Assembly: GCF_030580915.1 (NCBI RefSeq)
Contig: NZ_JAUQTA010000001.1
Coordinates: 1,798,001 to 1,862,000, forward strand
Direction: 5' to 3'
Source of the DNA: Nocardioides jiangxiensis
GTDB taxonomy: Bacteria; Actinomycetota; Actinomycetes; Propionibacteriales; Nocardioidaceae
Length of the DNA: 64,000 nucleotides
A program made the position numbers and the translations under genes. A model generated the notes under the pieces. The model did no database searches. It saw nothing but the letters and a program-made list of their open reading frames with translations, and had not been told where the DNA came from. Below, one piece after another: positions 22,131-39,909 of the stretch (position 1 is its first letter; every line of letters begins with the position of its first letter).

Positions 22131-22148
22131 CCTGTCCGAACGGAGAGG
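22131..22148. promoter_or_regulatory. CCTCTCCG-NN-CGGACAGG motif, copy 1 (reverse)
   Basis: CCTGTCCG-AA-CGGAGAGG is a near-perfect palindrome lying between the aldehyde dehydrogenase promoter and the end of the regulator gene. Four further copies occur near alcohol-metabolism genes. Confidence 0.5.
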
Positions 22149-23345
22149 TCAGTGCGCGAACTCGCGGTCCAGCCGGGCCAGCTGGCCCTGGGCCAGCGCC
22201 CACAGCGGGGAGCCCGGCGGCAGCAGGTCGCGCTGCCGCATCCACATCTCGTAGTCGTCTGCTCCCCACGCGGACCGTGTCCAGGCGGACATCAGGTCCG
22301 GCTGGCCGGCGTGCATGACGGCGGCCCGGAGCTGCTCCGTGAGCACCTCCCGCAGGCGTACGACGCCCGGCGCCGTCGACCGCGGGAGCAGAGGGCCCCG
22401 GAAGCTGCGCAGCGCTCCGGCGACGTCTCCGGCCGCCAGGTGCGCCTCGATCGCCAGCCAGTCGCCGGCGACGTCGGTGAGCAGCCGGTAGGGCCGGGAT
22501 CCGAAGAACGTGTCTCCGAGGAGGTGGCGGAGGCGGTTGAGCTCGGCACGCAGCGTCGAGGAGCCGCTCTCGTCCTCGTAGAGGAGCACGCTCAGCTCGT
22601 CGCCGGAGAGGCCGCGGGGCGTGCTCGCCAGGAGCAGGACGAGCTCGCTGTGGCGGGGCGAGAGGCGCAGGTGCCCCGTGTGGCCACGGTCGTCGTCGAT
22701 GCTGAGGAGGGCGTCGTTGCGGCCGAGCGCCTCGATGCGGATGCAGGGACGGCCCGAGCGCGGGCTCGGGACCCGGCTGACCAGCCGGTCACGCGCCAGC
22801 TCGGTCTCGGCGAGCCGGACGGTCGCCCGCACCAGCGCCATCGTCTGGGGGACGACGATCTCGTCGCCGCCGGTGACGTCGAGGACGCCCAGGAGCTGGG
22901 AGCTGCCCGGGTCGTGGATGGGTGCCGCTGCACAGCTCCAGCCGCGCACGGCGTGGCGGAAGTGCTCTCCCCGGACGATGCTGCTGGGCTGGTCCAGCCG
23001 CAGCGCCAGGCCGGGTGCGTTGGTGCCCGCGAGCCGCTCGTCCCAGTTGCTGCCCTCCACGAAGCCGATCGACTCCGCGCGACGCAGGGCCGTGCCCGAG
23101 CCGCAGACCCACAGCAGCTGGCCGGCCTCGTCGGAGACGGCCATCACCGCATCGCAGTCGCGGGCCGCCTGGCCGAGGACGTCGTCGAGGAGCGGGAAGA
23201 CCCGGGCGAGCGGGTGGTCGGCGCGCACCGACCGCAGCTGGCCGTCGTCGAGGGTGATCGGCGCCGCCACCTCGTCGGCGGGAACACCGGCCGCGGCGGA
23301 CCGGTGCCACGACGCGGCGACCTCGGCACGCATCCCGGTGTCCAT
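22149..23345 (-). CDS. AcoR-like GAF-domain transcriptional regulator
   Basis: This 398-residue protein starts with the typical AcoR N-terminus (VAASWHRSAAAGV). A GAF-type sensor follows (SNWDERLAGTNAPGLAL, HAVRGWSCAAAPIHDP, LLGVLDVTGG), then a C-terminal region with HLRLSPRHSELVLLL and an HTH-like segment. The sigma-54 AAA+ domain of proteobacterial AcoR is missing, as in actinobacterial members. It probably senses an alcohol, aldehyde or acetoin-like metabolite and controls the adjacent aldehyde dehydrogenase. The start MDTGMRAE is chosen by similarity. A CRP-like site sits 9 bases upstream. Confidence 0.85.
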   Translation of the reverse strand: MDTGMRAEVAASWHRSAAAGVPADEVAAPITLDDGQLRSVRADHPLARVFPLLDDVLGQAARDCDAVMAVSDEAGQLLWVCGSGTALRRAESIGFVEGSNWDERLAGTNAPGLALRLDQPSSIVRGEHFRHAVRGWSCAAAPIHDPGSSQLLGVLDVTGGDEIVVPQTMALVRATVRLAETELARDRLVSRVPSPRSGRPCIRIEALGRNDALLSIDDDRGHTGHLRLSPRHSELVLLLASTPRGLSGDELSVLLYEDESGSSTLRAELNRLRHLLGDTFFGSRPYRLLTDVAGDWLAIEAHLAAGDVAGALRSFRGPLLPRSTAPGVVRLREVLTEQLRAAVMHAGQPDLMSAWTRSAWGADDYEMWMRQRDLLPPGSPLWALAQGQLARLDREFAH

Positions 23346-23353
23346 CTGGACAG

Positions 23354-23369
23354 TGTGACACCGTTCACG
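23354..23369. promoter_or_regulatory. CRP-type site at the AcoR-like regulator start
   Basis: TGTGA-CACCGT-TCACG matches 9 of 10 arm bases and ends 9 bases from the regulator ATG, suggesting repression if the promoter is further upstream. Confidence 0.6.
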
Positions 23370-23384
23370 TTGCAACGACGTTGC
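23369..23384. promoter_or_regulatory. GTTGC direct repeat next to CRP site
   Basis: GTTGC at 23369 and 23380 (11-bp period) directly abuts the CRP-type site upstream of the first AcoR-like regulator. Confidence 0.5.
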
Positions 23385-23447
23385 GAGCGCGGCGTCCGGC
23401 CTCGGCCGACGGGGCGGGGCACCTGGCTGGCCATCCGGGCCGACCGC

Positions 23448-23465
23448 CCTCTCCGACCGGACGGT
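23448..23465. promoter_or_regulatory. CCTCTCCG-NN-CGGACGGT motif, copy 2
   Basis: CCTCTCCG-AC-CGGACGGT is located in the divergent gap, 40 bases before the nickel permease start. Confidence 0.5.
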
Positions 23466-23477
23466 CCTCGCTCCGGC

Positions 23478-23500
23478 TTGTTGCGAAGCCCTCGCAACAA
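23478..23500. promoter_or_regulatory. Nur-box-like dyad at nickel permease
   Basis: TTGTTGCGA and TCGCAACAA are perfect 9-bp arms around AGCCC. The core TTGCGA-N5-TCGCAA fits the Streptomyces Nur (nickel-responsive Fur family) consensus tTGCaa-N5-ttGCAA as I remember it. It ends 6 bases before the permease ATG. Confidence 0.68.
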
Positions 23501-23505
23501 CACCC

Positions 23506-24651
23506 ATGGTCGCGGACATGACCATGACCAGCACCGCCCGTCGTCCGGTCCTCGGCCGCGAGGAGAAGGCGTCGCTCCTGCGGACCCTCGGCTTCGTGCT
23601 CGCCCTGCACCTCCTCGGATGGGGCCTGCTGCTGGGGGTCGTCGCCCCGCGTCACTACGCGGTCGGTGACGGCGTCCTCGGGCTCGGCCTCGGCCTGACG
23701 GCGTACACCCTCGGCATGCGGCATGCCTTCGACGCCGACCACATCGCCGCCATCGACGGCACGACCAGGAAGCTGATGGCCGACGGCCAGCGCCCCGTCA
23801 GCGTCGGCTTCTGGTTCAGCCTGGGCCACAGCTCGGTCGTCCTCGCGATGGTGATGGGCATCGCCTTCGGGGTCAGGGCGCTGGCCACCGGCGTGCAGGA
23901 CACCGACTCCGCCCTGCTCCGGACCGCGGACGTCTGGGGTCCGTCCGTCAGCGGGGTCTTCCTCCTCGCGATCGGGGCGCTGAACCTGACGGCGCTCGTC
24001 GGGATCGTGCGGGTCTTCCGTGGCATGAGGCGCGGGCACTACGACGAGGCGGCGCTCGACCGCAGCCTCGACGCACGTGGGCTCCTCAGCCGCCTGCTCG
24101 CCAGGGTCAACCGCGCGGTGCGCAAGCCGTGGCACATGTACCCGATCGGCTTCCTCTTCGGTCTCGGCTTCGACACGGTCAGCGAGATCGGGCTCCTGGT
24201 GATCGCCGGAGGTGCCGCGGTGGCGAGCCTGCCCTGGTGGGCAGTGGTCACGCTGCCGGTCCTCTTCGCGGCCGGGATGTCCTTGCTCGACACCCTCGAC
24301 GGCGCCTTCATGAACGTCGCCTACGGGTGGGCCTTCTCCCGTCCGGTCCGGAAGGTCTACTACAACCTGACCGTCACGGCGCTCTCCGTGGTGGTCGCGC
24401 TGGCGATCGGCGTCGCGACCCTCGGGACGATGCTCGGCGAGCAGCTCGGCGGCCCGCTCCGGGTCTTCCTCGACCTCGACCTGGAGTACGTCGGCTACGG
24501 CATCGTGCTGCTCTTCCTGCTCGCCTGGGCGGGCTCGGTCGCGTTCTGGAAGGTCGCCCGCGTCGAGGAGCGGTGGGGTGCGGCCACGGCCGCGACGCCC
24601 GGCGCCGCAGCCGGTCCCGGCGCAACCGGATTGCAACCTTGGCGCAACTAG
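23506..24651 (+). CDS. HoxN/NixA-family nickel/cobalt permease
   Basis: The 381-residue protein has about 8 membrane segments and the NiCoT signature HAFDADHIAAIDGTTR (H-x4-DH) in the second segment, plus LGFDTVSEIGLL and SLLDTLDGAFM, further family motifs. It imports Ni2+ or Co2+. No Shine-Dalgarno site is visible before ATG 23506; in-frame ATGs at 23518 and 23524 are alternatives. The Nur-like dyad directly upstream favours nickel. Its place inside an alcohol-oxidation block, beside His-rich maturation proteins, is unusual. Confidence 0.92.
   Translation: MVADMTMTSTARRPVLGREEKASLLRTLGFVLALHLLGWGLLLGVVAPRHYAVGDGVLGLGLGLTAYTLGMRHAFDADHIAAIDGTTRKLMADGQRPVSVGFWFSLGHSSVVLAMVMGIAFGVRALATGVQDTDSALLRTADVWGPSVSGVFLLAIGALNLTALVGIVRVFRGMRRGHYDEAALDRSLDARGLLSRLLARVNRAVRKPWHMYPIGFLFGLGFDTVSEIGLLVIAGGAAVASLPWWAVVTLPVLFAAGMSLLDTLDGAFMNVAYGWAFSRPVRKVYYNLTVTALSVVVALAIGVATLGTMLGEQLGGPLRVFLDLDLEYVGYGIVLLFLLAWAGSVAFWKVARVEERWGAATAATPGAAAGPGATGLQPWRN
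24622..24648. promoter_or_regulatory. Triple GTTGC repeat (reverse strand), 11-bp period
   Basis: GCAAC at 24622, 24633 and 24644 gives three reverse GTTGC units exactly 11 bp apart. They overlap the last codons of the nickel permease and lie 63-89 bases before the iron alcohol dehydrogenase. Confidence 0.55.
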
Positions 24652-24653
24652 CG

Positions 24654-24710: not shown

Positions 24711-25904
24711 ATGCTCGCGACATCCGCAGCAGTGCGCCCGCTCCAGAGAGACGAACGACGTCTGCTGAAGTTCCACGTCCCGGAGATGGTGTTCGGACTC
24801 GGCTCCCTCGCGGAGGCGGGGTTCTGCGCGGGACGCCTCGGTGCACGCCGGCCCTTCGTCGTCACGGACCCCGGCATCATCGACGCAGGGTGGGTCGCCG
24901 AGCTGGTCCACCACCTGCGCGACGTCGGCCTCGACCCGCAGGTCTGGGCCGGTGTCACCCCCAACCCGAAAGACCACGAGATCGACGCGGCGCTCGCGGC
25001 GTACGTCGAGTGCGGTGGCGACGTCATCATCGGCATCGGGGGCGGCTCCGCGCTGGACGCCGCCAAGGGGGTCGCGATCCTGAGCGGCAACGGTGGCTCC
25101 ATCAGCGACTACGCCGGGGTCGACCGGGTCGTGAACCCGATCCCGCCCCTCCTGATGATCCCGTCCACCGCGGGCACCGGGTCCGACGTCTCCCAGTTCT
25201 GCATCGTCACGGACACGGCGCACGCCGTGAAGATGACCATCATGGGCCGCTCCCTGGTGCCCGACATCTCCGTGACGGATCCCCGCCTGCTGAGCACGAT
25301 GCCGCAGGACCTCGCGGCTGCCACCGGGCTCGACGCCCTGACCCACGCGGTCGAGTCGTTCGTGTCCCTCGGCCACAACCCGCTGGCGGACGGGCACGCG
25401 CTCTCGGCTGCGCGCCTCGTCGCGCAGGCCCTCCGGCGCAACGTCGAGGCGCCCGGCGACGAGCAGGCGCGGCTCTGGATGGCCCAGGCCAGCCTCGAGG
25501 CGGGCCTCGCCTTCTCCAACTCGATCCTCGGTGCGACGCATGCGATGAGCCACCAGGTCGGTGGTCTGTTCGACCTGCCGCACGGCGTGGTCAACGGCGT
25601 CCTGCTCCCGCACGTGATCCGGTTCAACGCGGCTGTGGTCCCGGAGCGGTTCGCGGTCCTCGCCGGAGCCATGGGCCTCCCGGTGGCCGGCGTTCCAGCG
25701 GCTGAGGCGGCCGAGCTGCTCGCGCAGTACGTCCAGGACCTCGCCGAGTCCGTGGGCGCCCCGCGCCGCCTCGGGGCCCTCGGGGTGACCGACCAGGACG
25801 TCGAGCGCATGTCCATCACCGCCGTACGCGACGCCTGCCTCGCCACGAACCCTCGTCCCGCGGGCCAGGACGACATCGCCGGGATCTTCCGCGAGTCGCT
25901 GTGA
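24711..25904 (+). CDS. Iron-containing (group III) alcohol dehydrogenase, ErcA-like
   Basis: This 397-residue protein has the NAD-binding GIGGGSALDAAKG (about 104-116) and the metal ligands of Fe-ADHs in GLDALTHAVESF and GATHAMSHQVGGLFDLPHG. It should reduce or oxidise short alcohols/aldehydes with an Fe or Zn centre. GAGGAGG precedes the ATG by 10 bases. Its stop overlaps the sensor kinase start (GTGA), a linkage recalling the regulatory Fe-ADH ErcA, encoded near kinases in Pseudomonas ethanol metabolism. A signalling role is therefore possible. Confidence 0.88.
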   Translation: MLATSAAVRPLQRDERRLLKFHVPEMVFGLGSLAEAGFCAGRLGARRPFVVTDPGIIDAGWVAELVHHLRDVGLDPQVWAGVTPNPKDHEIDAALAAYVECGGDVIIGIGGGSALDAAKGVAILSGNGGSISDYAGVDRVVNPIPPLLMIPSTAGTGSDVSQFCIVTDTAHAVKMTIMGRSLVPDISVTDPRLLSTMPQDLAAATGLDALTHAVESFVSLGHNPLADGHALSAARLVAQALRRNVEAPGDEQARLWMAQASLEAGLAFSNSILGATHAMSHQVGGLFDLPHGVVNGVLLPHVIRFNAAVVPERFAVLAGAMGLPVAGVPAAEAAELLAQYVQDLAESVGAPRRLGALGVTDQDVERMSITAVRDACLATNPRPAGQDDIAGIFRESL

Positions 25905-27301
25905 CCACCCAGCCGCGCTCACGGCCACCGACCGACGGCGGGCGGCGGTCCCTGCCCGACCTGGCTGCGCTCACCGGTGTCCGCTCCGGCAAGCAGACGT
26001 ACTACAACGCCTACCAGCGGTCGAACGAGCGGCTGCAGCGCACCGTTGCTGCCATGGACTCCATCTCCGGTGCGCTCGTGCACCCCGTGGAGGGTCCGCG
26101 ACCGCTGCTGGAGAAGATCGTGCGGGTCGCCTCCCGTCACCTTGACGCCCGGTGGGCGCTGCTCGCGCTGACGGCGCATGCGCTGCCGTCGACGCGGCCG
26201 CGGTTCCTCGCCCTCGACGCCGTCGGTCTGGTCCGGGACGCTCTCGGTGAGCTCCCGCCGGATGCGACGGAGGCGATCGAGGCGATCTCCTCGGGGATCC
26301 TGCCGACCCGGGCGATGCAGAACGACGCGGGCGCCGTCGTCGTACCGATGCTCCTCGACGGCCACGCGATCGGCGCGCTCGTGGTGGCGCCACACGGTGA
26401 CGTCCCGCTGGAGACACCCGACCTGTCGGCGCTCCACATCCTCGCGAACCTCGCAGCGGTCTCGCTGCACACCGGCGACCTCTACCGGACCGGTCTCGCC
26501 CAGCAGAGGCGTGCCCACCAGCTCTTCGACGAGGTCTCGGAGCAGGCCCGGCTCCTCTCGGTGCGGGACGAGGAGCTGCGTGCCGCCGAGCAGCGGCTGC
26601 GGGTGGCCGACCAGCGCGAGCTGATCGACAACGAACGCCGGCGCATCGCCCTCGAGCTCCACGACAGCGTGGCCCAGACCGTGCTGACGGCCGGCCTCGT
26701 GCTCGAGGTCGCCCGGCGCGACCTGGCGCCGGGTACGCACCCGCAGGCGGCCGCCACCGCCCTCACAGAGCTCGACCGTGCGCGCGACCTGATGTCGACC
26801 GCCACCGAGCAGCTCCGGTCGGTCATCTACGCACTGCACCACGAACGTGCGGCCGAGGACGTCGCGAGCCTTCCCGAGCTGCTCGCCGAAGTGGCCTCCC
26901 AGCACCGTCCGCACCTGACCGTGCGGCTCCGCGTGGAGGGCAGTCCGATCCCCCTGGGGACGGCGGCAGAGCACGCTCTCGCGCGCACCGCGGGGGAGGC
27001 GCTCTTCAACGTCGCGATGCACTCCGATGCCCGGAAGGCGCTGGTGCGGCTGCGCTACCTCGATTCGGCTGTCGTCCTCCGCGTGAGCGACGACGGCGAC
27101 GGTGACCCGGCCGCGATGCGCCGGACCGTCCGGCTGGCCCGGCGCGGGACCGCCGACGGCCGGCATCGGGGGCTGGTGGGCATGGCGCTCCGCGCGGAGG
27201 CGCTCGGCGGCACCTTCTCGATCCGCCGGTCGCGCGCCGGCGGCGTCGCCGTCGAGTCCCGCATCCCCCTCGTCCCCGCTTCAGCATCCGCCACCACCTG
27301 A
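25901..27301 (+). CDS. GAF-domain sensor histidine kinase (NarL-partner type)
   Basis: The 466-residue soluble kinase has an N-terminal region with SGKQTYYNAYQRSNERL, a GAF domain (about 60-195, VVVPMLLDGHAIGALVVAP), a coiled-coil-like linker (RDEELRAAEQRLRVADQRE) and a HisKA_3 dimerisation box ERRRIALELHDSVAQTV with the phospho-acceptor His. The ATPase domain (EALFNVAMHSDA, VSDDGDGD, GLVGMALRAEALGG) follows. No membrane segment is seen, so the signal is cytoplasmic. It is coupled to the Fe-ADH by GTGA, and its TGA overlaps the AGGAG of the next gene. Similar proteins near mycofactocin genes are called MadS in some annotations (from memory). Confidence 0.88.
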   Translation: MTTQPRSRPPTDGGRRSLPDLAALTGVRSGKQTYYNAYQRSNERLQRTVAAMDSISGALVHPVEGPRPLLEKIVRVASRHLDARWALLALTAHALPSTRPRFLALDAVGLVRDALGELPPDATEAIEAISSGILPTRAMQNDAGAVVVPMLLDGHAIGALVVAPHGDVPLETPDLSALHILANLAAVSLHTGDLYRTGLAQQRRAHQLFDEVSEQARLLSVRDEELRAAEQRLRVADQRELIDNERRRIALELHDSVAQTVLTAGLVLEVARRDLAPGTHPQAAATALTELDRARDLMSTATEQLRSVIYALHHERAAEDVASLPELLAEVASQHRPHLTVRLRVEGSPIPLGTAAEHALARTAGEALFNVAMHSDARKALVRLRYLDSAVVLRVSDDGDGDPAAMRRTVRLARRGTADGRHRGLVGMALRAEALGGTFSIRRSRAGGVAVESRIPLVPASASATT

Positions 27302-27315
27302 GGAGCGCGATTCCC

Positions 27316-28020
27316 ATGACCACCATGACCACGGCCGCCGATCTGCCCGGGCCCGACCCCACCCCGCTCTCGCAGGGCGTCGCCAGCATCGGCATCGTCC
27401 TCGTCGACGACCACGCGATGGTGCGCCAGGGACTTCGCTCGGTCCTCGAACGCGAGGCCGACCTGCGGGTCGTCGGCGAGGCCGGCTCGTCGGCGCAGGC
27501 GCTCGCGGTCGTCGCCTCGACCCGCCCCGAGGTCGTGCTCCTGGACCTGCGGCTCTCGCCCTCGACCGACAACGAGGGCATCGAGCTGTGTGCCCGGCTG
27601 CACAAGGCGCATCCGGAGGTCGCGGTCCTGGTGCTCACCACCGTCATCGACGACCACCTCGTCCTGGAGGCGATCCACCAGGGAGCGCGCGGCTACGTCG
27701 TCAAGGAGGTCGACACCTCCGAGCTCGTGCGGGCGATCCGCGCGGTCAACCGGGGCGAGAGCGCGTTCGACTCGCGCAGTGCCGCGGCCATGGTGCGGGG
27801 CATCAACGCCGGCTCGGCGGCCGAGAACCGGCAGCTGACCGACCGGGAGCAGGACGTCCTGCGACTGCTCGCACGCGGCATGTCCAACCGGGGGATCGGC
27901 CAGCAGCTCTTCATCTCCGAGACCACGGCGAAGTTCCACGTCTGCAACATCATGCGGAAGCTGCAGGTCTCCCGGCGCGCCGAGGCGGTCTACGTGGCCA
28001 GCAAGGAGGGCTTCATCTAG
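27316..28020 (+). CDS. NarL/LuxR-family response regulator
   Basis: This 234-residue protein has a receiver domain (IVLVDDHAMVRQGL, phospho-acceptor Asp in EVVLLDLRLS, VVKEVD at the Lys position) and a LuxR-type HTH (LTDREQDVLRLLARGMSNRGIGQQL, SETTAKFHVCNIMRKL). A roughly 23-residue N-terminal extension precedes the receiver. AGGAG lies 9 bases before the ATG. It is the output partner of the kinase directly upstream (called MadR in some annotations, from memory) and is a candidate binder of the CCTCTCCG-NN-CGGACRGG palindromes. Confidence 0.9.
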   Translation: MTTMTTAADLPGPDPTPLSQGVASIGIVLVDDHAMVRQGLRSVLEREADLRVVGEAGSSAQALAVVASTRPEVVLLDLRLSPSTDNEGIELCARLHKAHPEVAVLVLTTVIDDHLVLEAIHQGARGYVVKEVDTSELVRAIRAVNRGESAFDSRSAAAMVRGINAGSAAENRQLTDREQDVLRLLARGMSNRGIGQQLFISETTAKFHVCNIMRKLQVSRRAEAVYVASKEGFI

Positions 28021-28051: not shown

Positions 28052-28960
28052 TCAGGGCCGGTCCAGGACCAGCCACCCTCCGTGGTGCTCGTGGACCGTC
28101 CACCACCACCCGCTCGCGTCGGCCATCTCGACGAGGGTGCGGGAGGTGAAGACGCGCACGTGCCCGTAGGCAGCCGTCGGCTCGTCCTCGAACGGGACCG
28201 CGACCACGACGCGTCGCCGGGCCAGCCGCTGCATCTCGCGGAGGACGGCGACCCCGTGCTCGACCGGCAGGTGCTCGAGCAGGTGCAGGGCGACCACGGT
28301 GTCGTACGACCTCGAGGGTCGCGGCACCCGCGCGGCGTCGCAGATGACGGTGTCGATCGTCCGGCCCAGCAGCGGTGCGACGCGCGCGAGCAGGCGCACG
28401 GTGTTGGCCGACAGGTCGCTCGCCGTCACGTCGAAGCGGTCGGCGGCGAAGAGGCTGAAGAAGCCGAAGCAGCTGCCGAGCTCGAGGACCGAACCCGGCT
28501 CGATCAGGCCTGCCGCGTGCGCATAGACCGGTGCGTAGCCCGCGAGCGAGCCCTCGACCAGGTCGCTCGCTGGTGGCACGGCGGCGCGGGGGACCGAGCC
28601 GTGGGTGAGCCCGGCGAGCCGGTCCAGGGTGTTGCGGTAGAAGAGGGTCCAGGCCGTCAGCGCGTCGTCCGCCGAGCTGACGACGAGCCCGGTCATCAGC
28701 CGTTCGAAGAGCTCGCTCCCCTCCAGCCAGCCGGGGGCGAACAGCTCGGCCGCCACGAGGCCCGCGAGGTCGTTGTCGATCCGCGCGGGTGGGAGGTCGT
28801 GCGCGAGGTGGACCCGGTCGTGGTCGGTCCAGAACGCGAACGACACCGTCCGGACGGCGCCCGGCGGGACCTCACGGGTCCGGACGACCTCGACCAGGTC
28901 GTCGGCGTACACGCCGCGGGCGCCGGCGGGCAGCGGGTCGATCGGTGCGGCGAGGGTCAT
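28052..28960 (-). CDS. SAM-dependent methyltransferase, probable mycofactocin methyltransferase MftM
   Basis: The 302-residue protein carries the class I methyltransferase motif VLELGSCFGFFSLFAA (about 145-160), an acidic strand end VTASDLSAN, and YDTVVALHLLEHL, within a larger protein whose first about 140 residues are family-specific. MftM methylates the oligoglucoside tail of mycofactocin in mycobacteria. The identification here rests on overall similarity as I recall it and on location in the mycofactocin/MDO region. It overlaps the VWA gene by ATGA, so it is the third gene of moxR-VWA-methyltransferase. Confidence 0.65.
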   Translation of the reverse strand: MTLAAPIDPLPAGARGVYADDLVEVVRTREVPPGAVRTVSFAFWTDHDRVHLAHDLPPARIDNDLAGLVAAELFAPGWLEGSELFERLMTGLVVSSADDALTAWTLFYRNTLDRLAGLTHGSVPRAAVPPASDLVEGSLAGYAPVYAHAAGLIEPGSVLELGSCFGFFSLFAADRFDVTASDLSANTVRLLARVAPLLGRTIDTVICDAARVPRPSRSYDTVVALHLLEHLPVEHGVAVLREMQRLARRRVVVAVPFEDEPTAAYGHVRVFTSRTLVEMADASGWWWTVHEHHGGWLVLDRP

Positions 28961-30495: not shown

Positions 30496-30513
30496 GGCTC
30501 AGCCTCTCCCGCG

Positions 30514-31752: not shown

Positions 31753-31795
31753 GGGTGCCTCCTGGGGCGACGTCAGTGAAGGGGGAGGGGTGGAC

Positions 31796-31836
31796 CGGTC
31801 CGGCCCGGGGGCTGGGTGCCCGCCCGGGCCGGACCG
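31796..31836. terminator. Terminator after MDO gene
   Basis: CGGTCCGGCCCGGG pairs with CCCGGGCCGGACCG (14 bp, 13-base loop), 37 bases past the MDO stop (leftward) and ahead of the moxR start. It should reduce read-through from MDO into moxR. Confidence 0.78.
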
Positions 31837-31872
31837 AGACGCGGGTGACCGTGGGTCGGTCACGCGACAGGC

Positions 31873-33165
31873 TCAGGACAGGAGGTCGTCCAGGTCGCCG
31901 GTCATGCAGTGCTCGACGACGGGGCGCACCGTCTCGAAGGTGCACTCCTTGGCGTTGCCGGGGGTGCAGGCGTCGCCGAGGACGTGGTTCGTGATCCGGT
32001 CGACGTCCTCGGCGTCGCCCTTGATCACCTTCGCGTTCTCGTAGTACTTCGTCGGACCCTGGCCGAGGCGGTTCTTGGAGTAGGTGTCCTGGGTGACGGA
32101 GACGAAGTTCTCCGGGATGCCGACGTCGCGCAGGAGCCGGATGGCGGCCGCCAGCGCCGCGTCGGCGGCCTGGACCTTCGTCATGCCGCGGGTGTCGACG
32201 CCCATCGCCTCGGCGATGTCGGCGAACCGGCCGTACTGGGCCGGCATGTTGAACGCCCACACGCGGGGCAGCGCGATGGCGTTGTTCAGGCCGTGGTGGG
32301 TGTCGTAGAACGCCGACACCGCGTGCGAGATCGAGTGGATGATGCCGAGGCCGCCGGAGTTGAACGCCTGGGCGGCGATGTACTGGGCGTACATCATGCC
32401 CTCGCGGCCCTTGAGGTCCTGGCCGTTCCAGACCGCCTCGCGGAGGTTCTCCGCGGTCAGCTTGATGGCGCGGATCGCGTTGCCGAGCGAGGGCTCGAAG
32501 TTGAGGCGCGAGACGTACGGCTCGGAGGCGTGGGCGAGCACGTCGAAGCCGCACTGCGCGGTGTAGTCGACCGGGCAGTCGAAGTAGAGCACCGGGTCGT
32601 CGATGGCGAGGGTGGCCACCGACGCGTCGTCGAACGCGACGTACTTGTGCGGGTTGTCGGGGTCCGTCGTGGTGTCGGTGATGACATAGGCCCACGAGGT
32701 CTCCGAGCCGGTGCCGGCCGTGGTGGAGACGGCGATGTGCGGTGGGTTGTTCGGGTTCTCGGACTTGTTGAAGCCCTCGAAGTCGTTGACGTTGCGACCG
32801 TCGTGGGCGACGGAGATGCGTGCGCCCTTGCAGGCGTCGTGCGAGGAGCCGCCACCGATGGAGATGAACGAGTCGCACTTGTTCTGCTGGTACAGGGCCA
32901 CCGCGTCCATGACGTTGTAGTCCTTGGGGTTGGACTCGACCTTGTCGTACACGACGGCCTCGAGGCCGTGGTACTTCAGCGAGTCCACGATCTTCTGCAC
33001 GACGTTGGTGCCACGCAGGCCCGACGTCATGACCAGGGGCTTGGTGAAGCCCAGCTTGATGGCCTCGGGACCGATGAGCTCGTGCGCTCCCGGACCCATG
33101 AGGGCACGCGGGAACGGGTGGAACTCCTTGATCGGGAAGGGCTTGAGCAGCTCGTCAACCTGCAT
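31873..33165 (-). CDS. mdo: NDMA-dependent methanol/alcohol dehydrogenase (MDO/MNO)
   Basis: This 430-residue iron-type alcohol dehydrogenase matches the actinobacterial MDO family (Amycolatopsis and Mycobacterium methanol:NDMA oxidoreductase): MQVDELLKPFPIKEFHPFPR start, SIGGGSSHDACKGAR for NAD(P) binding, and metal ligands in CGFDVLAHASEP and HSISHAVSAFYDTHHG. MDO holds tightly bound NADP and needs an external electron acceptor, now thought to be mycofactocin in vivo. The ATG at 33165 follows AGGAGG. It is divergent from mftA across 288 bases. Confidence 0.92.
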   Translation of the reverse strand: MQVDELLKPFPIKEFHPFPRALMGPGAHELIGPEAIKLGFTKPLVMTSGLRGTNVVQKIVDSLKYHGLEAVVYDKVESNPKDYNVMDAVALYQQNKCDSFISIGGGSSHDACKGARISVAHDGRNVNDFEGFNKSENPNNPPHIAVSTTAGTGSETSWAYVITDTTTDPDNPHKYVAFDDASVATLAIDDPVLYFDCPVDYTAQCGFDVLAHASEPYVSRLNFEPSLGNAIRAIKLTAENLREAVWNGQDLKGREGMMYAQYIAAQAFNSGGLGIIHSISHAVSAFYDTHHGLNNAIALPRVWAFNMPAQYGRFADIAEAMGVDTRGMTKVQAADAALAAAIRLLRDVGIPENFVSVTQDTYSKNRLGQGPTKYYENAKVIKGDAEDVDRITNHVLGDACTPGNAKECTFETVRPVVEHCMTGDLDDLLS

Positions 33166-33292: not shown

Positions 33293-33310
33293 CCTGTCCG
33301 GTCGGAGAGG
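33293..33310. promoter_or_regulatory. CCTCTCCG-NN-CGGACAGG motif, copy 3 (reverse)
   Basis: CCTGTCCG-GT-CGGAGAGG lies in the MDO-mftA divergent promoter region, 128 bases from MDO and 144 from mftA. Confidence 0.55.
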
Positions 33311-33344: not shown

Positions 33345-33362
33345 CCCCTCCGAACGGACGGG
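33345..33362. promoter_or_regulatory. CCTCTCCG-NN-CGGACGGG motif, copy 4
   Basis: CCCCTCCG-AA-CGGACGGG (one mismatch in the left arm) lies 35 bases from copy 3 and 92 bases before mftA. Two copies in one divergent promoter suggest joint control of MDO and the mft operon. Confidence 0.5.
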
Positions 33363-33453: not shown

Positions 33454-33558
33454 ATGTCCGCTCACACCACCCGTTCCGCCGACGTCGACACCGACCTGCT
33501 CGAGGAGGAGCTCCTCGTCGAGGAGGTCTCGATCGACGGCATGTGCGGCGTCTACTGA
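33454..33558 (+). CDS. mftA: Mycofactocin precursor peptide MftA
   Basis: The 34-residue peptide ends IDGMCGVY, the strictly conserved mycofactocin core; the C-terminal Val-Tyr becomes the redox cofactor. The acidic leader (DLLEEELLVEEV) is typical and binds MftB. AAGGGAG precedes the ATG. It is too short for many gene finders, and mftB follows 19 bases later. Confidence 0.97.
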   Translation: MSAHTTRSADVDTDLLEEELLVEEVSIDGMCGVY

Positions 33559-33577: not shown

Positions 33578-33865
33578 ATGACCTCCTTCGACCCGCAGGG
33601 CGCGTGGCGGCGCACGCCGTCCGTCGTACTCCGGCCCGAGCCGTTCGGTGCCCTCGTCTACGACTTCGGATCGCGCCGCCTCTCGTTCCTCAAGGACCTC
33701 GCCCTCGTGCGGGTCGTGGAGGCACTCGACCGGTCGGCCTCGGCGCTCGCGGCACTCCGCACCGCCGGCATCGCCGAGGCCGACCACCCCCGTTACCTGT
33801 CGGCCCTGGCCACCCTGGCCCGCTCCGGCATGATCAGCCCGCGTCAGGAGGCGGCAGCGTCATGA
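33578..33865 (+). CDS. mftB: Mycofactocin peptide chaperone MftB
   Basis: This 95-residue PqqD-like protein holds the MftA leader and presents it to MftC. Recognisable features are WRRTPSVVLRPEPFGALVYDF at the N-terminus and the downstream RLSFLKD. GGGAGGA precedes the ATG. It overlaps mftC by ATGA, ensuring co-translation with its partner. Confidence 0.95.
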   Translation: MTSFDPQGAWRRTPSVVLRPEPFGALVYDFGSRRLSFLKDLALVRVVEALDRSASALAALRTAGIAEADHPRYLSALATLARSGMISPRQEAAAS

Positions 33866-35091
33866 CACTCACCCCCACCCGCCCGGCACACGCCCCGGAG
33901 CGCACTCCCGTCCCACGGCTCGTCGACCAGTTCGAGCACGGCCTGGACGCGCCGATCTGCCTCACTTGGGAGCTCACCTACGCGTGCAACCTCGCGTGCG
34001 TCCACTGCCTGTCCTCGTCCGGCCGCCGTGACCCCCGCGAGCTCAGCACCGAGCAGGCGAAGGCGGTCATCGACGAGCTCCAGCGCATGCAGGTCTTCTA
34101 CGTGAACATCGGCGGCGGCGAGCCGACCGTGCGCCCCGACTTCTGGGAGCTCCTGGAGTACGCCGTCGCGCACGACGTCGGCGTGAAGTTCTCCACCAAC
34201 GGCGTCCGGATCACCCCCGAGCGGGCCCGTTGGCTGGCGGCGAGCGACTACGTCGACGTCCAGATCTCCCTGGACGGCGCGACCGCCGAGGTCAACGACG
34301 CGGTCCGGGGACGCGGCTCCTTCGACATGGCCGTCCGTGCGCTGCAGAACCTCAAGGACGCCGGCTTCAGGGACTCCAAGATCTCCGTCGTCGTGACGCG
34401 GGAGAACGTGCGGCAGCTCGACGAGTTCCAGGCCCTCGCCGACCGCTTCGGTGCGACGCTCCGGATCACCCGGCTGCGGCCGAGCGGGCGCGGTGCGGAC
34501 GTCTGGGACGACCTGCACCCGACCGCGGAGGACCAGCGCTTCCTCTACGACTGGCTGGTCGCCAAGGGCGAGGGCGTCCTCACCGGGGACTCCTTCTTCC
34601 ACCTCGCCGCCTTCGGCGACGCGCTGCCCGGCCTCAACCTCTGCGGTGCCGGCCGTGTCGTCTGCCTGATCGACCCCGTGGGCGACGTCTACGCCTGCCC
34701 GTTCGCCATCCACGACACGTTCAAGGCCGGCAACCTGCTCGAGGACGGAGGCTTCCAGCAGGTCTGGCAGCAGTCCGCGCTCTTCACCCAGCTGCGCGAG
34801 CCGCAGTCGGGTGGCGCGTGCGCCTCCTGCTCGGCGTTCGACGCGTGCCGGGGCGGGTGCATGGCCGCCAAGTTCTTCACCGGCCTGCCGCTCGACGGCC
34901 CCGACCCGGAATGCGTGAAGGGCAACAGCGAGGCGGCCCTGGCCAACCGCGACGGCTCCGGCCTGCCGCAGGCGTCGCAGGACCACTCGCGCCCCGCCGC
35001 CGTCGTGCTCGGCATGCCCGGACGCCCGACGTCGCTGGGCCCCGCCACCACCAAGCTGCCCGACCGGTTCTGCAACGAGAGCCCCATCTGA
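33862..35091 (+). CDS. mftC: Mycofactocin maturase MftC (radical SAM)
   Basis: The 409-residue radical SAM/SPASM enzyme decarboxylates the C-terminal Tyr of MftA and then forms the Val-Tyr cross-link. The SAM cluster motif CNLACVHC (C-x3-C-x2-C) lies at about 47-54, followed by GGGEPTVRPDF. C-terminal SPASM cysteines include CGAG, YACPF, CASCSAFDACRGGC and a final C in PECVKG. The tail after about residue 365 is extended and ends FCNESPI. Confidence 0.97.
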   Translation: MTLTPTRPAHAPERTPVPRLVDQFEHGLDAPICLTWELTYACNLACVHCLSSSGRRDPRELSTEQAKAVIDELQRMQVFYVNIGGGEPTVRPDFWELLEYAVAHDVGVKFSTNGVRITPERARWLAASDYVDVQISLDGATAEVNDAVRGRGSFDMAVRALQNLKDAGFRDSKISVVVTRENVRQLDEFQALADRFGATLRITRLRPSGRGADVWDDLHPTAEDQRFLYDWLVAKGEGVLTGDSFFHLAAFGDALPGLNLCGAGRVVCLIDPVGDVYACPFAIHDTFKAGNLLEDGGFQQVWQQSALFTQLREPQSGGACASCSAFDACRGGCMAAKFFTGLPLDGPDPECVKGNSEAALANRDGSGLPQASQDHSRPAAVVLGMPGRPTSLGPATTKLPDRFCNESPI

Positions 35092-35105
35092 GGAGTCACC
35101 CTGTC

Positions 35106-36278
35106 ATGTCCACGACCTGGTTCGAGACCGTCGCCGAGGCCCAGCGGCGCGCGAAGAAGCGTCTCCCGAAGTCCGTCTACAGCGCGCTGCTGGCCGGCTC
35201 GGAGAAGGGCGTCAGCTACGACGACAACACCACGGCGTTCGGCGAGCTCGGCCTCGCCCCGCACTGTGCCGGCCTGTCCGCGAAGCGCGACCTGGCCACC
35301 ACCGTCATGGGCGAGGAGATCTCGCTGCCGGTGATCTGCTCGCCCACCGGTGTGCAGGCCGTGCACCCCGACGGCGAGGTCGCCATCGCGCGTGCCGCGG
35401 CCGCTCGCGGCACCATCACCGGGCTGAGCTCGTTCGCGAGCAAGCCGGTCGAGGAGGTGGTCGCGGCCAACCCCCAGACGTTCTTCCAGATCTACTGGCT
35501 GGGCAGCCGGGACGCGATCCTGCAGCGCCTCGAGCGAGCCAAGGCGGCGGGCGTCCGCGGCCTCATCGTCACGACGGACTGGTCGTTCTCGATGGGTCGT
35601 GACTGGGGGAGTCCCTCGATCCCCGAGAAGCTCGACGTGAAGGCCATGCTGCAGTTCGCCCCCGAGACCCTGGCGCGGCCGCGGTGGCTCTCCCGCTTCG
35701 CCCGTGCCGGCTACATCCCGGACCTGACCGCGCCCAACCTCGTCGAGCCGGGCGGCAAGGCGCCGACCTTCTTCGGTGCGTACTACGAGTGGATGCAGAC
35801 CCCGCTCCCGACGTGGGAGGACCTGGCCTGGCTGCGCTCGCAGTGGGACGGCCCCGTGATGCTCAAGGGCGTCTGCCGGGTCGACGACGCCAAGCGTGCG
35901 GTGGACGCGGGCATGACCGCGATCTCGGTCTCCAACCACGGCGGCAACAACCTCGACACCACGCCGGCCCCGATCCGGGTGCTGCCGTCGATCGCCGACG
36001 CCGTCGGCGACCAGGTCGAGGTCGTCCTCGACGGCGGAGTGCGCCGCGGCAGCGACGTCGTCAAGGCTGTCGCCCTCGGCGCCCGGGCGGTCATGATCGG
36101 CCGCGCGTACCTGTGGGGCCTCGCCGCCAACGGCCAGGCCGGTGTCGAGAACGTCCTCGACATCCTCCGTGGCGGCATGGACTCGGCCCTCCTCGGCATG
36201 GGCAAGTCGTCGGTGCAGGACCTGACCCCGGGCGACATCGTGATCCCGCCGGGCTTCACGCGCACCCTCGGAGCCTGA
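35106..36278 (+). CDS. mftD: Mycofactocin biosynthesis FMN-dependent deaminase MftD
   Basis: This 390-residue protein belongs to the FMN alpha-hydroxyacid dehydrogenase (lactate dehydrogenase-like) fold, with ISVSNHGGNNLDTTPAPIRVLP and VVLDGGVRRGSDVVKA as flavin/phosphate-binding segments. MftD oxidatively deaminates AHDP to give the active dicarbonyl premycofactocin. GAGGAG lies 10 bases before ATG 35106. The next gene begins 1 base after its stop. Confidence 0.95.
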   Translation: MSTTWFETVAEAQRRAKKRLPKSVYSALLAGSEKGVSYDDNTTAFGELGLAPHCAGLSAKRDLATTVMGEEISLPVICSPTGVQAVHPDGEVAIARAAAARGTITGLSSFASKPVEEVVAANPQTFFQIYWLGSRDAILQRLERAKAAGVRGLIVTTDWSFSMGRDWGSPSIPEKLDVKAMLQFAPETLARPRWLSRFARAGYIPDLTAPNLVEPGGKAPTFFGAYYEWMQTPLPTWEDLAWLRSQWDGPVMLKGVCRVDDAKRAVDAGMTAISVSNHGGNNLDTTPAPIRVLPSIADAVGDQVEVVLDGGVRRGSDVVKAVALGARAVMIGRAYLWGLAANGQAGVENVLDILRGGMDSALLGMGKSSVQDLTPGDIVIPPGFTRTLGA

Positions 36279-36279
36279 G

Positions 36280-36999
36280 ATGGAGCTCGCGCTCGCCACC
36301 TGGCCCGAGCTGGGCGAACGGGTCGACGTCGTGGTCCTCCCGACCGGCTCGTGCGAGCAGCACGGGCCGCACCTGCCGTTCGCCACGGATGCGGCGATCG
36401 CCACCTCCGTCGCGGGGCGCGCGGTGCAGCGACTGCGTGCCGCAGGGGTGCACGCGGTCGCGGCGCCGGCGCTGCCCTACGGGGCGAGCGGCGAGCACGA
36501 GCACTTCCCGGGCACGGTGGACATCGGCCACGAGGCCCTGCACTCCGTGCTCCTGGAGCTCGGGCGCTCGATCTCGCGCTGGGCCGACCGCCTCGTCGTC
36601 GTCAACGGTCACGGTGGCAACGCGCCGACCGTGGCTGCCGCGGTGGGCCGGCTCCGCCACGAGGGCCGCGACGCCGGCTGGGTGCCCTGCGAGATCGTCT
36701 GGGGCGATGCCCACGCCGGCCGCACCGAGACCTCGATGATGGCGGCGATCGCGCCCGCCGTCGTCCGTGAGGACCGGGCCGAGGCCGGTGCGACGGAGCC
36801 GGTGGAGGTGCTCATGCCCCGGCTGCGCACGGGCGGCGTCCGGGCCGTCTCGCCCAACGGAGTGCTCGGCGACCCCGCAGGGGCCTCGGCCGCGGAAGGT
36901 GAGCTCCTGCTCGCCGGGCTGGTCGATGCCACGGTCGAGGCGGTCCTGCAGGGACGGCCGGACGTCACGGGGCGCCTGCGGGTGCCGGTGTCGGCGTGA
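36280..36999 (+). CDS. mftE: Mycofactocin precursor peptidase MftE
   Basis: The 239-residue creatininase-family metalloprotease releases the Val-Tyr-derived core from modified MftA. Metal-binding motifs are GSCEQHGPHLP (about 25-35), EHEHFPGTVDIG and VVNGHGGNAPT. It starts 1 base after mftD and overlaps the SDR gene by GTGA. Confidence 0.94.
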   Translation: MELALATWPELGERVDVVVLPTGSCEQHGPHLPFATDAAIATSVAGRAVQRLRAAGVHAVAAPALPYGASGEHEHFPGTVDIGHEALHSVLLELGRSISRWADRLVVVNGHGGNAPTVAAAVGRLRHEGRDAGWVPCEIVWGDAHAGRTETSMMAAIAPAVVREDRAEAGATEPVEVLMPRLRTGGVRAVSPNGVLGDPAGASAAEGELLLAGLVDATVEAVLQGRPDVTGRLRVPVSA

Positions 37000-37778
37000 C
37001 CACGCCGCCGGTCGCGCTGGTCACCGGTGCCGCTGGCGGCATCGGCACGGCCGTCGTGACCGCGCTCGCCGAGGACGGCTTCCACGTCGTGGCGCTCGAC
37101 GCGTGTGCCCCGATGCCCGGCGCCGCGTCGCAGCCCGCGCCGCACGAGGCCCTGACCGCGCTGAAGCGGACGGGCGACGTCGACACCGCCGTCGTCGATG
37201 TGCGCGACCGCGCCGCCCTCGACGCGGTCGTCGCCGCGGTCCGGGAGGAGCACGGGCGTCTCGACGTCGTCGTCGCTGCCGCGGGCGCCGTCGCCGGTGG
37301 TCGCCCCGTGTGGGAGGCGCCCTCCGCGGAGCTGGACATGCTCCTCGACGTGAACCTGAAGGGCACCTGGAACACCGCCGCCGCGACCCTTCCGCTGATG
37401 CTGAGGCAGCCCGCGCCGCGCCAGGGCAGGTTCATCGCGATCGCCTCGGCCGCCGCGCACCGGGGCCTCCTCCACCTGGCGGCGTACGTCGCGAGCAAGC
37501 ACGCCGTCGTGGGCCTGGTCCGCGGGCTCGCCGCCGACCTGCACGGCACCGGCATCACGGCGACCGCGGTCTCACCCGGCAGCACGCGGACGCCGATGCT
37601 CGCCGCCACCGCCTCCCTGTACGGGCTCGACGCCGTCGAACCCCTCGCCGCCCGCCACCTCGTGGAGAGGGTCCTGGAGCCCGAGGAGATCGCCGACACG
37701 GTGCGCTGGCTCAGCTCGCCCCGTGCCGGCGCGATCACGGGGAGCGTCGTCCACGTGGACGGGGGCTTCACGGCATGA
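36996..37778 (+). CDS. Mycofactocin-coupled SDR-family oxidoreductase
   Basis: This 260-residue short-chain dehydrogenase has the nucleotide motif TGAAGGIG (about 9-16), AAAGAVAGG, catalytic Ser (IAIASAAAH) and Y-x3-K (YVASK). A segment of about 25 residues after the first Rossmann unit is the insertion expected in SDRs that hold NAD non-exchangeably and pass electrons to mycofactocin. It is embedded by overlaps on both sides (mftE, mftF), so it belongs to the operon. The alcohol substrate is unknown. Confidence 0.88.
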   Translation: MTTPPVALVTGAAGGIGTAVVTALAEDGFHVVALDACAPMPGAASQPAPHEALTALKRTGDVDTAVVDVRDRAALDAVVAAVREEHGRLDVVVAAAGAVAGGRPVWEAPSAELDMLLDVNLKGTWNTAAATLPLMLRQPAPRQGRFIAIASAAAHRGLLHLAAYVASKHAVVGLVRGLAADLHGTGITATAVSPGSTRTPMLAATASLYGLDAVEPLAARHLVERVLEPEEIADTVRWLSSPRAGAITGSVVHVDGGFTA

Positions 37779-39304
37779 GCGCGACGGCGGAGCGTCTGCC
37801 GGCCGGGAGCGACCGGGCCCTGGCTCCGGGGACGCGGGTGCGCCTGCTGCCGGAGACCTGGCGCGGCGAGGGTGGCCGGGCCCTCTTCGGGGGTTCGCCG
37901 ACCAGGATGCTCTTCCTCACGCCGGCCGCCTGCGCAGTGCTGGGGGAGGGGGAGTTCGCCGTGGAGGACCGGCGCAGCGAGCGCCTCGCGCGGATGCTGC
38001 TCGACCGGGGGTTCGCGGAGATCGCAGCGGCCCGCGCACGGTGGACGGCCGCCGACGTCACCGTCGTGGTGCCGGTGAAGGACCGGCCGGTCGCGCTCGC
38101 GCGGCTGCTCGACGCACTCGGTGTGGGGGGAGGGCTGCGCGTGATCGTCGTCGACGACGGCTCGGCCGACCTCGCCGCCACGATCGAGGTGACCCGCCGC
38201 CCCGGCGTGTCGCTGCTCTGCCACGACACCTCGCGCGGACCGGCCGCGGCCCGCAACACCGGCCTGCGAGCCGTGACCACGGACCTCGTCGCCTTCGCGG
38301 ACTCGGACGTCGTCCCCGTGCCCGGCTGGCTCGAACCGCTGCTCGCGCAGCTCGAGGACCCAGCGGTCGGCGTCACCGCACCGCGCATCGCCGGCCTGCA
38401 GGGGCACGACCGCGGAGGGGTCGTCGCCCGCTACGAGGCGGTGCGCTCCTCCCTCGACCTCGGTCCGCTCGCGGCCGTGGTCCGCCCCGGCGCGAAGGTC
38501 CCCTACGTCCCGTCGGCCTGCCTGCTCGGGCGGGTCGCGGCGTTCGGGGACGGGTTCGACGAGCGGATGCACGTCGGCGAGGACGTCGACCTGGTCTGGC
38601 GCACCGTCGGCTGCGGCTGGCTGGTCCGCTACGTCCCTGACGCGGTCGTCGCCCACGACCACCGCGTCGACGCCCGGCGCTGGTTCCTGCGGAAGGCCTT
38701 CTACGGCACGAGTGCGGCACCGCTCGCGATGCGGCACGGCGACGCGGTCGCACCGGTGGTCCTGGGTCCGATGACCCTCGCGGTCGCGCTGGCCGTGGTC
38801 GCGCAGCGGCGCTGGTCGACCGGCCTGGCCGTTGCCGTGGTCGGTGCGGTCACCGCCCGCACGGCGCTGTCCCTCGAGCAGAGCACGCGGCCGTGGGCGG
38901 TGGCTGCCCGGCTCGCGCCGTACGGCCTGGTGGCGTCCCTCCAGCAGTCGAGCGCGGCGATGACCCGGCACTGGTGGCCGGCGATGGTCCCGCTCGCCCT
39001 GGCGTCGCGTCGCGCCCGGCGGGCGTGGCTGACAGCCGCGGTCCTGGAGGGGCTGGTCGACTGGCGGCGTTCGCGCTCCGACCTCGACCCGCTGACGCAC
39101 GTCGTGCTGCGCCGGCTCGACGACCTCGCCTATGGCGCAGGGCTGTGGTGGGGTGCCCTGAGGCACGCCACCACAGCCCCGCTCCGGCCGGCTCGGGGCC
39201 GGTCGTTCCTCGCGCTCAGGCGCGGACCGGGGCGCCGAGGGGGAGAGGGCGGCCGCCGGTGGCCTGGGACATGGCGTCGAGGAACAGGTACGCACCGACC
39301 GTGA
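37775..39304 (+). CDS. mftF: Mycofactocin glycosyltransferase MftF
   Basis: The 509-residue GT2 enzyme adds beta-1,4-glucose units to premycofactocin. After a PqqD-like N-terminal region (about 1-90) comes the GT2 fold: VTVVVPVKDRP, VIVVDDGSAD, GPAAARNTGL, FADSDVVP, and the GEDVDLVWR motif. Two or more C-terminal hydrophobic segments (about 320-350) suggest membrane association. The start overlaps the SDR stop. The last 30 or so residues (Gly/Arg-rich) are read across the 3' end of the convergent transporter gene (89-base overlap), so the true conserved domain ends near LRHATTAPL. Confidence 0.93.
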   Translation: MSATAERLPAGSDRALAPGTRVRLLPETWRGEGGRALFGGSPTRMLFLTPAACAVLGEGEFAVEDRRSERLARMLLDRGFAEIAAARARWTAADVTVVVPVKDRPVALARLLDALGVGGGLRVIVVDDGSADLAATIEVTRRPGVSLLCHDTSRGPAAARNTGLRAVTTDLVAFADSDVVPVPGWLEPLLAQLEDPAVGVTAPRIAGLQGHDRGGVVARYEAVRSSLDLGPLAAVVRPGAKVPYVPSACLLGRVAAFGDGFDERMHVGEDVDLVWRTVGCGWLVRYVPDAVVAHDHRVDARRWFLRKAFYGTSAAPLAMRHGDAVAPVVLGPMTLAVALAVVAQRRWSTGLAVAVVGAVTARTALSLEQSTRPWAVAARLAPYGLVASLQQSSAAMTRHWWPAMVPLALASRRARRAWLTAAVLEGLVDWRRSRSDLDPLTHVVLRRLDDLAYGAGLWWGALRHATTAPLRPARGRSFLALRRGPGRRGGEGGRRWPGTWRRGTGTHRP

Positions 39305-39809
39305 CGAACGCGAAGACGGTGTAGCCACCGAGGTGCGTCAGGGCGGTGCTCGCCTGCGCCGTGCCGAGGAGCACGAGCAGCAGGGCCAGGTCGATCAGGG
39401 TGAAGAGGACCGTGAAGGCCCGCGGGAGCCGCAGGGTGGCGAGCGTCAGCAGGACGACGACGGCCAGCCAGGACCCGAGGAAGAGCTCCTGCGTGCGCAC
39501 GGCGTCGGCAGGAAGGATCCCGAACCAGCCGTGCGTCAGGCCCAGCACGAGCGCGGCGTAGCTGGACCAGAAGCCGGTGAAGATGCCGAAGATCGCGGCG
39601 ACGGCGTTCTGGTTGAGGCGGGTCGCCCAGATGGCCGCGACGGCCTGTCCGAACGCGGTCGCCGTGGCGATGATCGGGATCGACGCCGCGCCGGCGGTGG
39701 CCGGCACGAAGCCGGTGAGCACGAGGCCGAGGGCGACGGAGCCGACCAGGAACGTCGGGACGCCGATGAGGGCGGGGTTGCCGTCGGGGACGGTGGTTTC
39801 GGTGGACAC
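39216..39809 (-). CDS. GPR1/FUN34/YaaH-family (acetate) transporter
   Basis: This 197-residue protein has six membrane segments. Its N-terminus NPALIGVPTFLVGSVALGL corresponds to the NPAPLGL motif of the AceTr (SatP) family, although diverged. Members move acetate or succinate, consistent with this pathway block. GTG at 39809 follows GGAGG. A CRP-like site is 18 bases upstream and the CCTCTCCG motif 83. Its 3' end overlaps mftF. Confidence 0.8.
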   Translation of the reverse strand: MSTETTVPDGNPALIGVPTFLVGSVALGLVLTGFVPATAGAASIPIIATATAFGQAVAAIWATRLNQNAVAAIFGIFTGFWSSYAALVLGLTHGWFGILPADAVRTQELFLGSWLAVVVLLTLATLRLPRAFTVLFTLIDLALLLVLLGTAQASTALTHLGGYTVFAFVTVGAYLFLDAMSQATGGRPLPLGAPVRA

Positions 39810-39826
39810 GGATACCTCCAGGGGGA

Positions 39827-39842
39827 TGTGGTCCCGGTCACT
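39827..39842. promoter_or_regulatory. CRP-like site upstream of the YaaH-type transporter
   Basis: TGTGG-TCCCGG-TCACT matches 8 of 10 arm bases, 18 bases before the GTG start. Confidence 0.5.
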
Positions 39843-39891
39843 GTGCCGAGGCCGCGCTGCCCGCCACACCCTGCGACCGGGGCGCTCTCCC

Positions 39892-39909
39892 CCTCTCCGA
39901 TCGGGCGGG
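39892..39909. promoter_or_regulatory. CCTCTCCG-NN-CGGGCGGG motif, copy 5
   Basis: CCTCTCCG-AT-CGGGCGGG lies in the divergent gap between the transporter and adenylate kinase genes. Confidence 0.45.

Follow-up and report, generated by a model that had tools for sequence, protein, structure and literature searches.

A recurrent palindromic box as the predicted MadR operator of alcohol oxidation and mycofactocin genes in Actinobacteria

In a 64,000-nt stretch of the Nocardioides jiangxiensis genome (3.0 Mb, 72% GC), hereafter the window, five copies of an 18-bp palindromic box lie around genes for alcohol oxidation, nickel uptake and synthesis of the cofactor mycofactocin. We propose, with a probability of roughly 0.8, that this box serves as the operator for MadR, a response regulator of the NarL/LuxR type that is encoded in the window and resembles MnoR of Mycobacterium smegmatis. 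MadR would activate an N,N-dimethyl-4-nitrosoaniline (NDMA)-dependent alcohol dehydrogenase of the MDO family, mycofactocin synthesis, its own operon, an acetaldehyde dehydrogenase (ALDH) and a neighbour of the fifth box. What we observe directly is the box, how it is conserved, that it tracks MadR, and how the genes are arranged. An earlier note, made from the sequence alone, had singled out the same five copies and the same response regulator, and the evidence supports its interpretation as largely right. MnoSR-type control of the dehydrogenase promoter in M. smegmatis is already published; what appears to be new is a predicted operator common across Actinobacteria and the direct inclusion of mycofactocin synthesis. 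We recognised no description of this box or regulon in the open-licence literature searched.

Five boxes in the window

All five copies were recovered at the positions and on the strands originally reported, and their consensus was refined to CCTSYCCG-NN-CGGRSAGG. Box 1 (22131-22148, reverse strand) matches the refined consensus exactly and is found 107 bp upstream of an ExaC-type ALDH gene, where it directly abuts the stop codon of a gene encoding a GAF-domain regulator. Box 2 (23448-23465, forward strand), with two mismatches, is 40 bp upstream of nicT, encoding a nickel permease. Box 3 (33293-33310, reverse strand; exact) and box 4 (33345-33362, forward strand; two mismatches) share the region between the MDO gene and mftA, which encodes the mycofactocin precursor peptide. 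Box 3 is 127 bp upstream of MDO and 143 bp upstream of mftA, and box 4 is 179 bp and 91 bp upstream of these genes, respectively. The two are indeed close together, although separated by 34 bases edge to edge (52 start to start) and not by the 35 first given. Box 5 (39892-39909, forward strand), with one mismatch, is about 82 bp upstream of a YaaH-family transporter gene on the other strand and 126 bp upstream of adk.

As had been claimed, all five boxes are intergenic under the adopted gene starts. For box 2, this depends on the GAF-domain regulator starting at ATG 23345, as its longest open reading frame extends to 23534. Since 17 of 18 homolog alignments start at residues 1-5 and thus back ATG 23345, we take box 2 to be intergenic.

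Significance and conservation of the motif

Counting mismatches gives no significance by itself. The window holds 14 matches at up to 3 mismatches versus 9.7 expected, and the genome holds 101+103 versus 135+120 for a reversed control; at 72% GC such counts are uninformative beyond 1 mismatch. Of the 6 copies of the core TCCGNNCGGACRGG in the genome, 3 are inside the window. The refined palindrome CCTSYCCGNNCGGRSAGG is found exactly at 2 genome places, both inside the window, and at 9 places when up to 1 mismatch is allowed, of which 3 are inside. The expectation that genome matches would be confined to alcohol-metabolism promoters holds only for strong matches.

We scored sites with a symmetric matrix built from 49 distinct sites upstream of the same dehydrogenase gene in other genomes. 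The five boxes take ranks 1-5 in the window (24.9 bits for box 1, 23.6 for box 3, 20.7 for box 5, 16.5 for box 4 and 16.3 for box 2; the next site reaches 14.4), and also ranks 1-5 among the 50 of 66 genome near-matches that were scored. In 200 base-shuffled windows the maxima had a mean of 11.8 bits, a 95th percentile of 17.0 and a largest value of 23.4. Boxes 2 and 4, which fall below this 95th percentile, are thus not significant by score alone, and rest on conservation in relatives.

Conservation was examined upstream of the same dehydrogenase gene in the best 80 of 381 relatives, and across 118 genomes of the genus; several of the 80 loci come from genomes that are also in the genus comparison. 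A box with at most 2 mismatches is present within 300 bp upstream of the gene in 65 of the 80 loci; the corresponding counts are 24 among 1600 base-shuffled sequences and none among 80 stretches taken from inside the gene. Each of the 23 other MadR genomes of the genus has a box upstream of MDO, located 100-151 bp from the start codon; 20 of these boxes have at most 2 mismatches and 3 have 3. The Fe-type alcohol dehydrogenase, MadS and MadR genes are in series at every one of these loci. An exact box lies within 350 bp of this operon in 10 of the 23.

The other boxes also have counterparts. A box 1 counterpart precedes ALDH in 3 of the 9 genus loci that have ALDH (G125, G060 and G001), at 107-108 bp and with 0, 2 and 3 mismatches, and in two Janibacter loci a box lies between ALDH and the Fe-type dehydrogenase operon. 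The pair formed by boxes 3 and 4, at 52 bp, recurs in G001, G060 and G125. Pimelobacter simplex 3E (G104, the same genome as L218) has counterparts of box 2 before nicT (3 mismatches) and of box 5 before the YaaH gene (2 mismatches). The box between YaaH and adk is present both there and in Nocardioides sp. SLBN-35 (L217). In both relatives the distances from this box to YaaH and to adk are kept, and an early doubt about adk as sole target was dropped because the adk distance is conserved as well; box 5 may therefore serve the transporter, adk or both. Beyond the genus, Amycolatopsis deserti and A. acididurans have a box 51-64 bp upstream of nicT, and in A. echigonensis and A. dendrobii a box is located between MDO and nicT, so the nickel link is not peculiar to the N. 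jiangxiensis genome.

Correlation of the box with MadR

Of the 118 genus genomes, 24 have MadR (over the model cut-off); exactly these also have MDO, and all 24 have a box before it. Mycofactocin genes are more widespread, with 55 mftC matches in 46 genomes. In the 24 main clusters of MadR genomes the mftA promoters score 7.9 to 24.9 bits, 19 of them at least 14. The range is -10.7 to -0.3 bits for 9 extra clusters in MadR genomes and -12.8 to 0.6 bits for 22 clusters in genomes lacking MadR. The mftA promoters thus separate fully by MadR and main-cluster status.

In 13 of the 24 main clusters, including that of the window, mft and MDO share one intergenic region, so the box there may serve MDO and may itself be part of the matrix. 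The 11 clusters that are separate from the MDO promoter, and outside the matrix, score 9.7 to 21.8 bits, with 8 at 14 or above (G084, G015, G093, G011, G073, G079, G126, G128, G077, G104 and G061). Two further arrangements bear on the same correlation. One genome (G060; L318-L321) has five mftC matches, with a box only at the dehydrogenase-linked cluster. In nine loci a single-copy mftD lies apart from mftC, on the side of the Fe-type dehydrogenase and madSR, and in 8 of these (L121, L123, L124, L125, L129, L136, L137 and L138) it has its own box with at most 2 mismatches.

MftR, the known mycobacterial repressor of mft genes, is distributed differently: it adjoins 20 of the 22 clusters of MadR-less genomes, 6 of the 9 extra clusters and 6 of the 24 main clusters (G079, G126, G128, G077, G104 and G061), counting three below the cut-off. 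No MftR match at E 1e-20 was found in the N. jiangxiensis genome among the 25 of 45 first-look candidates that were scored.

Genes surrounding the boxes

The ALDH gene downstream of box 1 (20500-22023, reverse strand) exceeds the cut-off of NF050026 (943 bits; cut-off 900), nicT (23506-24651, forward strand) that of NF052500 (476.9 bits; cut-off 450), and MDO (31873-33165, reverse strand) that of TIGR04266 (685 bits; cut-off 625). The mftA gene (33454-33558, forward strand) was identified by reading the sequence, whose product ends in SIDGMCGVY, and is followed on the same strand by mftB-mftF (33578-39304), which score over the cut-offs of TIGR03967, 03962, 03966, 03964 and 03965. After MDO, on its strand, are mftM, a madC-like and a madB-like gene (28052-31863); MftM is over its cut-off, and MadC (291.4 of 600) and MadB (376.3 of 475) are both under theirs. 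The transporter gene near box 5 (39216-39809, reverse strand) belongs to the Gpr1/Fun34/YaaH family (PF01184).

Between nicT and madR are genes for an ErcA-like Fe-type alcohol dehydrogenase (24711-25904, forward strand), which has the Pfam domains of this enzyme class and scores 448.8 bits with the ErcA model, under its cut-off of 550, and for a MadS-like histidine kinase (25901-27301, forward strand) with HisKA_3 and HATPase_c domains. The kinase scores 453.9 bits with NF047786, under the cut-off of 500, but MadS is by far its best family and the alignment covers positions 1-434 of 434. MadR itself (27316-28020, forward strand; NF047785, 338.3 bits, cut-off 300) combines receiver and GerE domains. 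These four genes are in series on one strand, separated by 59 bp, a 4-base overlap and 14 bp, and because of this shared strand and short spacing they likely form one operon, which box 2 probably drives. Since box 2 would then head the regulator's own operon, autoregulation is also expected. The suggestion that the box ties nickel uptake to mycofactocin synthesis and alcohol oxidation is supported, with the qualification that the nickel box is probably that of the madSR operon.

Sites resembling that of the nickel regulator Nur, which we take to be TTGCAA-N5-TTGCAA, occur at 23370-23386, 23481-23497 and 24620-24647, that is, upstream of nicT and at its end, ahead of the Fe-type dehydrogenase gene. 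Two are also found upstream of nicT in G104, but the four nicT genes of Amycolatopsis have none upstream at up to 3 mismatches. In the 80 dehydrogenase loci the rate of such sites, with up to 2 mismatches allowed, is 19 in 1.57 Mb.

The GAF-domain regulator (22149-23345, reverse strand) has a GAF domain and a weak match to DhaR. A TGTTGC inverted repeat was considered as its box and rejected as a general companion, because its full form was confined to the region upstream of nicT, in the window as in G104. Beside a flavin monooxygenase gene, the window encodes a second GAF-domain, DhaR-like regulator (42608-43873). Another histidine kinase with a GAF domain (18591-19763), near genes for a sodium:solute symporter and an acetyl-CoA synthetase-like protein, could belong to acetate handling.

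Proposed mechanism

In our proposal, the kinase MadS would phosphorylate MadR, and MadR dimers would bind the 18-bp palindrome, cooperatively where two boxes are about five helical turns apart, as at MDO/mftA. Bound MadR would then activate the mycofactocin-dependent dehydrogenase operon together with mycofactocin biosynthesis, its own operon (here nicT, the Fe-type dehydrogenase gene, madS and madR), the acetaldehyde dehydrogenase gene and one of the genes beside box 5. From the MnoSR literature we carry over phosphotransfer, binding upstream of the dehydrogenase gene and positive control; we infer that MadR could read all five boxes and activate at each. The inducing signal would be an internal sign of alcohol or aldehyde flux, which the neighbouring Fe-type dehydrogenase may feed to the kinase.

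Several properties of the proteins and sites are in keeping with this proposal. Among 107 MadR sequences, a partly redundant set in which some genomes appear twice, two residues of the recognition-helix region, F207 and N211, never vary, compared with 0% and 7% in 28 paralogs, and this region is nearly constant overall in MadR, unlike in the paralogs. All 19 close box pairs with scores of at least 14 bits have start-to-start spacings of 22-23, 32, 43 or 51-54 bp, all near whole helical turns, which fits dimers that sit on the same face of the DNA helix, although many of these pairs are related by descent, so that the 19 do not count as independent. Hydropathy scanning of the kinase found one hydrophobic stretch within its GAF-like part and no other clear membrane span, so it likely senses an internal signal. 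The four residues that presumably bind metal in the Fe-type dehydrogenase are kept in 82 of 82 homologs, so this protein may be enzymatically active in addition to having a possible role in sensing.

Some observations weigh against the proposal. The refined consensus is imperfectly matched by boxes 2 and 4, at two positions each, and the matrix sites come partly from close relatives within the genus. No box at up to 2 mismatches was found in 15 of the 80 dehydrogenase promoters, and 6 of the 9 genus loci with ALDH have no box before it. In 25 of the 80 loci MadR was not found within the compared stretch. A genome-wide search of 25 genomes (23 of those loci and three more) found MadR over the cut-off in 22, leaving 3 of the 25 without it (G144, G426 and G429). 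Exact matches to the pattern occur in 33 of 118 genus genomes, versus 8 of 118 for the reversed control, and comprise 17 of the 24 genomes with MadR and also 16 of the 94 without it; the exact pattern is too loose by itself, so we relied on promoter-based tests. Finally, the comparison of the window palindrome with the MnoR site covers position and form, and the two may differ in their letters.

Remote exact matches in other genomes, inspected at 16 loci, were mixed, with several inside reading frames and no consistent target. One genome (G003; L169 and L207) has two exact palindromes and neither MadR over the cut-off, MDO nor mftC, and could reflect a different reader or chance.

Could another protein read the box? 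The GAF-domain regulator gene sits between boxes 1 and 2, adjoining both, a number of the loci encode homologs of it, and AcoR/DhaR-like proteins with a GAF domain regulate alcohol-type pathways. However, roughly 10 of the 23 boxed genus loci have no close GAF homolog within 20 kb (these genomes were not searched elsewhere), whereas MadR is in all 23, by the choice of loci, and its presence separates boxed from unboxed mft promoters. We consider this regulator an improbable reader, and give an equally small chance to another protein, NarL/LuxR-type or different, that is encoded elsewhere, always accompanies MadR and reads the box while MadR has other targets. The link between box and MadR is, after all, a correlation, and some genomes without MadR have exact boxes, such as the two in G003; but the boxes stand before madSR itself, and MnoR, the apparent ortholog of MadR, binds a palindrome at the matching place (excerpted text of PMC11303327). 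Least probable of all is that the boxes arose by chance in GC-rich DNA, or that they form RNA hairpins such as terminators. The genome has 72% GC and loose matches stay near the control rate, yet boxes keep their place upstream of the same genes in different genera, a matrix from outside the genome ranks the five boxes first, and the arms of boxes 1 and 3 pair incompletely, with G facing G at the fourth position. Altogether, co-occurrence, conservation before the same genes and the published behaviour of MnoR strongly support the predicted role of the LuxR-type regulator as the reader of a dimer-type operator.

A broader version of the MadR proposal is tentative, and we would sooner doubt than accept it. 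Control of this peptide-derived redox cofactor would have passed from MftR to the two-component system of the client enzyme, the Fe-type dehydrogenase would sense the substrate for the kinase, and nickel uptake would have joined because one of the dehydrogenases uses nickel; a single family of boxes might then coordinate the enzyme, its cofactor and the operon that encodes the sensor.

The MadR proposal spells out the operator, assigns it a likely reader and predicts a regulon shared by many Actinobacteria. It makes testable how cofactor supply is matched to the enzyme that uses it, and why a nickel permease belongs to the regulon in Nocardioides and Amycolatopsis, and the box could serve as a marker for finding mycofactocin-client genes. 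If true, the regulon is wider than that of MnoSR and includes cofactor synthesis.

Comparison with known systems

Most of what is known about how mycofactocin synthesis is controlled concerns mycobacterial MftR. This TetR-type protein represses mft from a 27-bp palindromic site before mftA, according to the excerpted text of PMC8728441. The window likewise has a palindromic operator candidate before mftA, but MftR is a repressor with a different site, and no MftR match at E 1e-20 turned up among the candidates scored in this genome.

In Pseudomonas, ethanol regulation of the ErcA/ErcS/ErdR type ties an Fe-type dehydrogenase-like protein to a kinase and a LuxR-type regulator; unlike ErcA, the window dehydrogenase falls short of the ErcA model cut-off.

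The MadA/EgaA system of Rhodococcus jostii RHA1 oxidises alcohols and glycols in a mycofactocin-dependent manner and, like the window, has a mycofactocin-associated alcohol dehydrogenase; the excerpted review text on it describes no operator or regulator (PMC13210347, PMC11166783). The NCBI names MadB, MadC, MadR and MadS suggest a gene set common to this system and the window.

The closest parallel is MnoSR of M. smegmatis (MSMEG_6238/MSMEG_6236), described here from excerpts of PMC11303327. MnoS phosphorylates MnoR, which binds a palindrome 137 bp before mno (MSMEG_6242); MnoSR controls mno positively, and the mutant does not grow on methanol or 1,3-propanediol. In the cluster MSMEG_6236-6242, ethanol raises the level in the wild type and the basal level is higher in mft mutants (excerpted text of PMC6529628), which would fit a system reading mycofactocin-dependent flux. 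In the window, too, genes for a kinase and a LuxR-type regulator accompany that of an NDMA-type dehydrogenase, which has a palindrome about 130 bp before it (127 bp). The window dehydrogenase differs from that of mno in belonging to another clade, being 61-65% identical to the classic type. The same operator is present, at 1-2 mismatches, in four loci of the classic-MDO type; three of them encode a MadR of 55-62% identity, and in the fourth genome MadR is found elsewhere. Classic-dehydrogenase genomes have the gene order MDO-madB-madC-alcohol dehydrogenase-madS-madR with a box. The MnoR site is reported as single in the M. smegmatis genome, with mismatches lowering binding (excerpts of PMC11303327), whereas the window has five boxes, which also stand before mftA, the nicT-dehydrogenase-madSR operon, ALDH and the neighbours of box 5.

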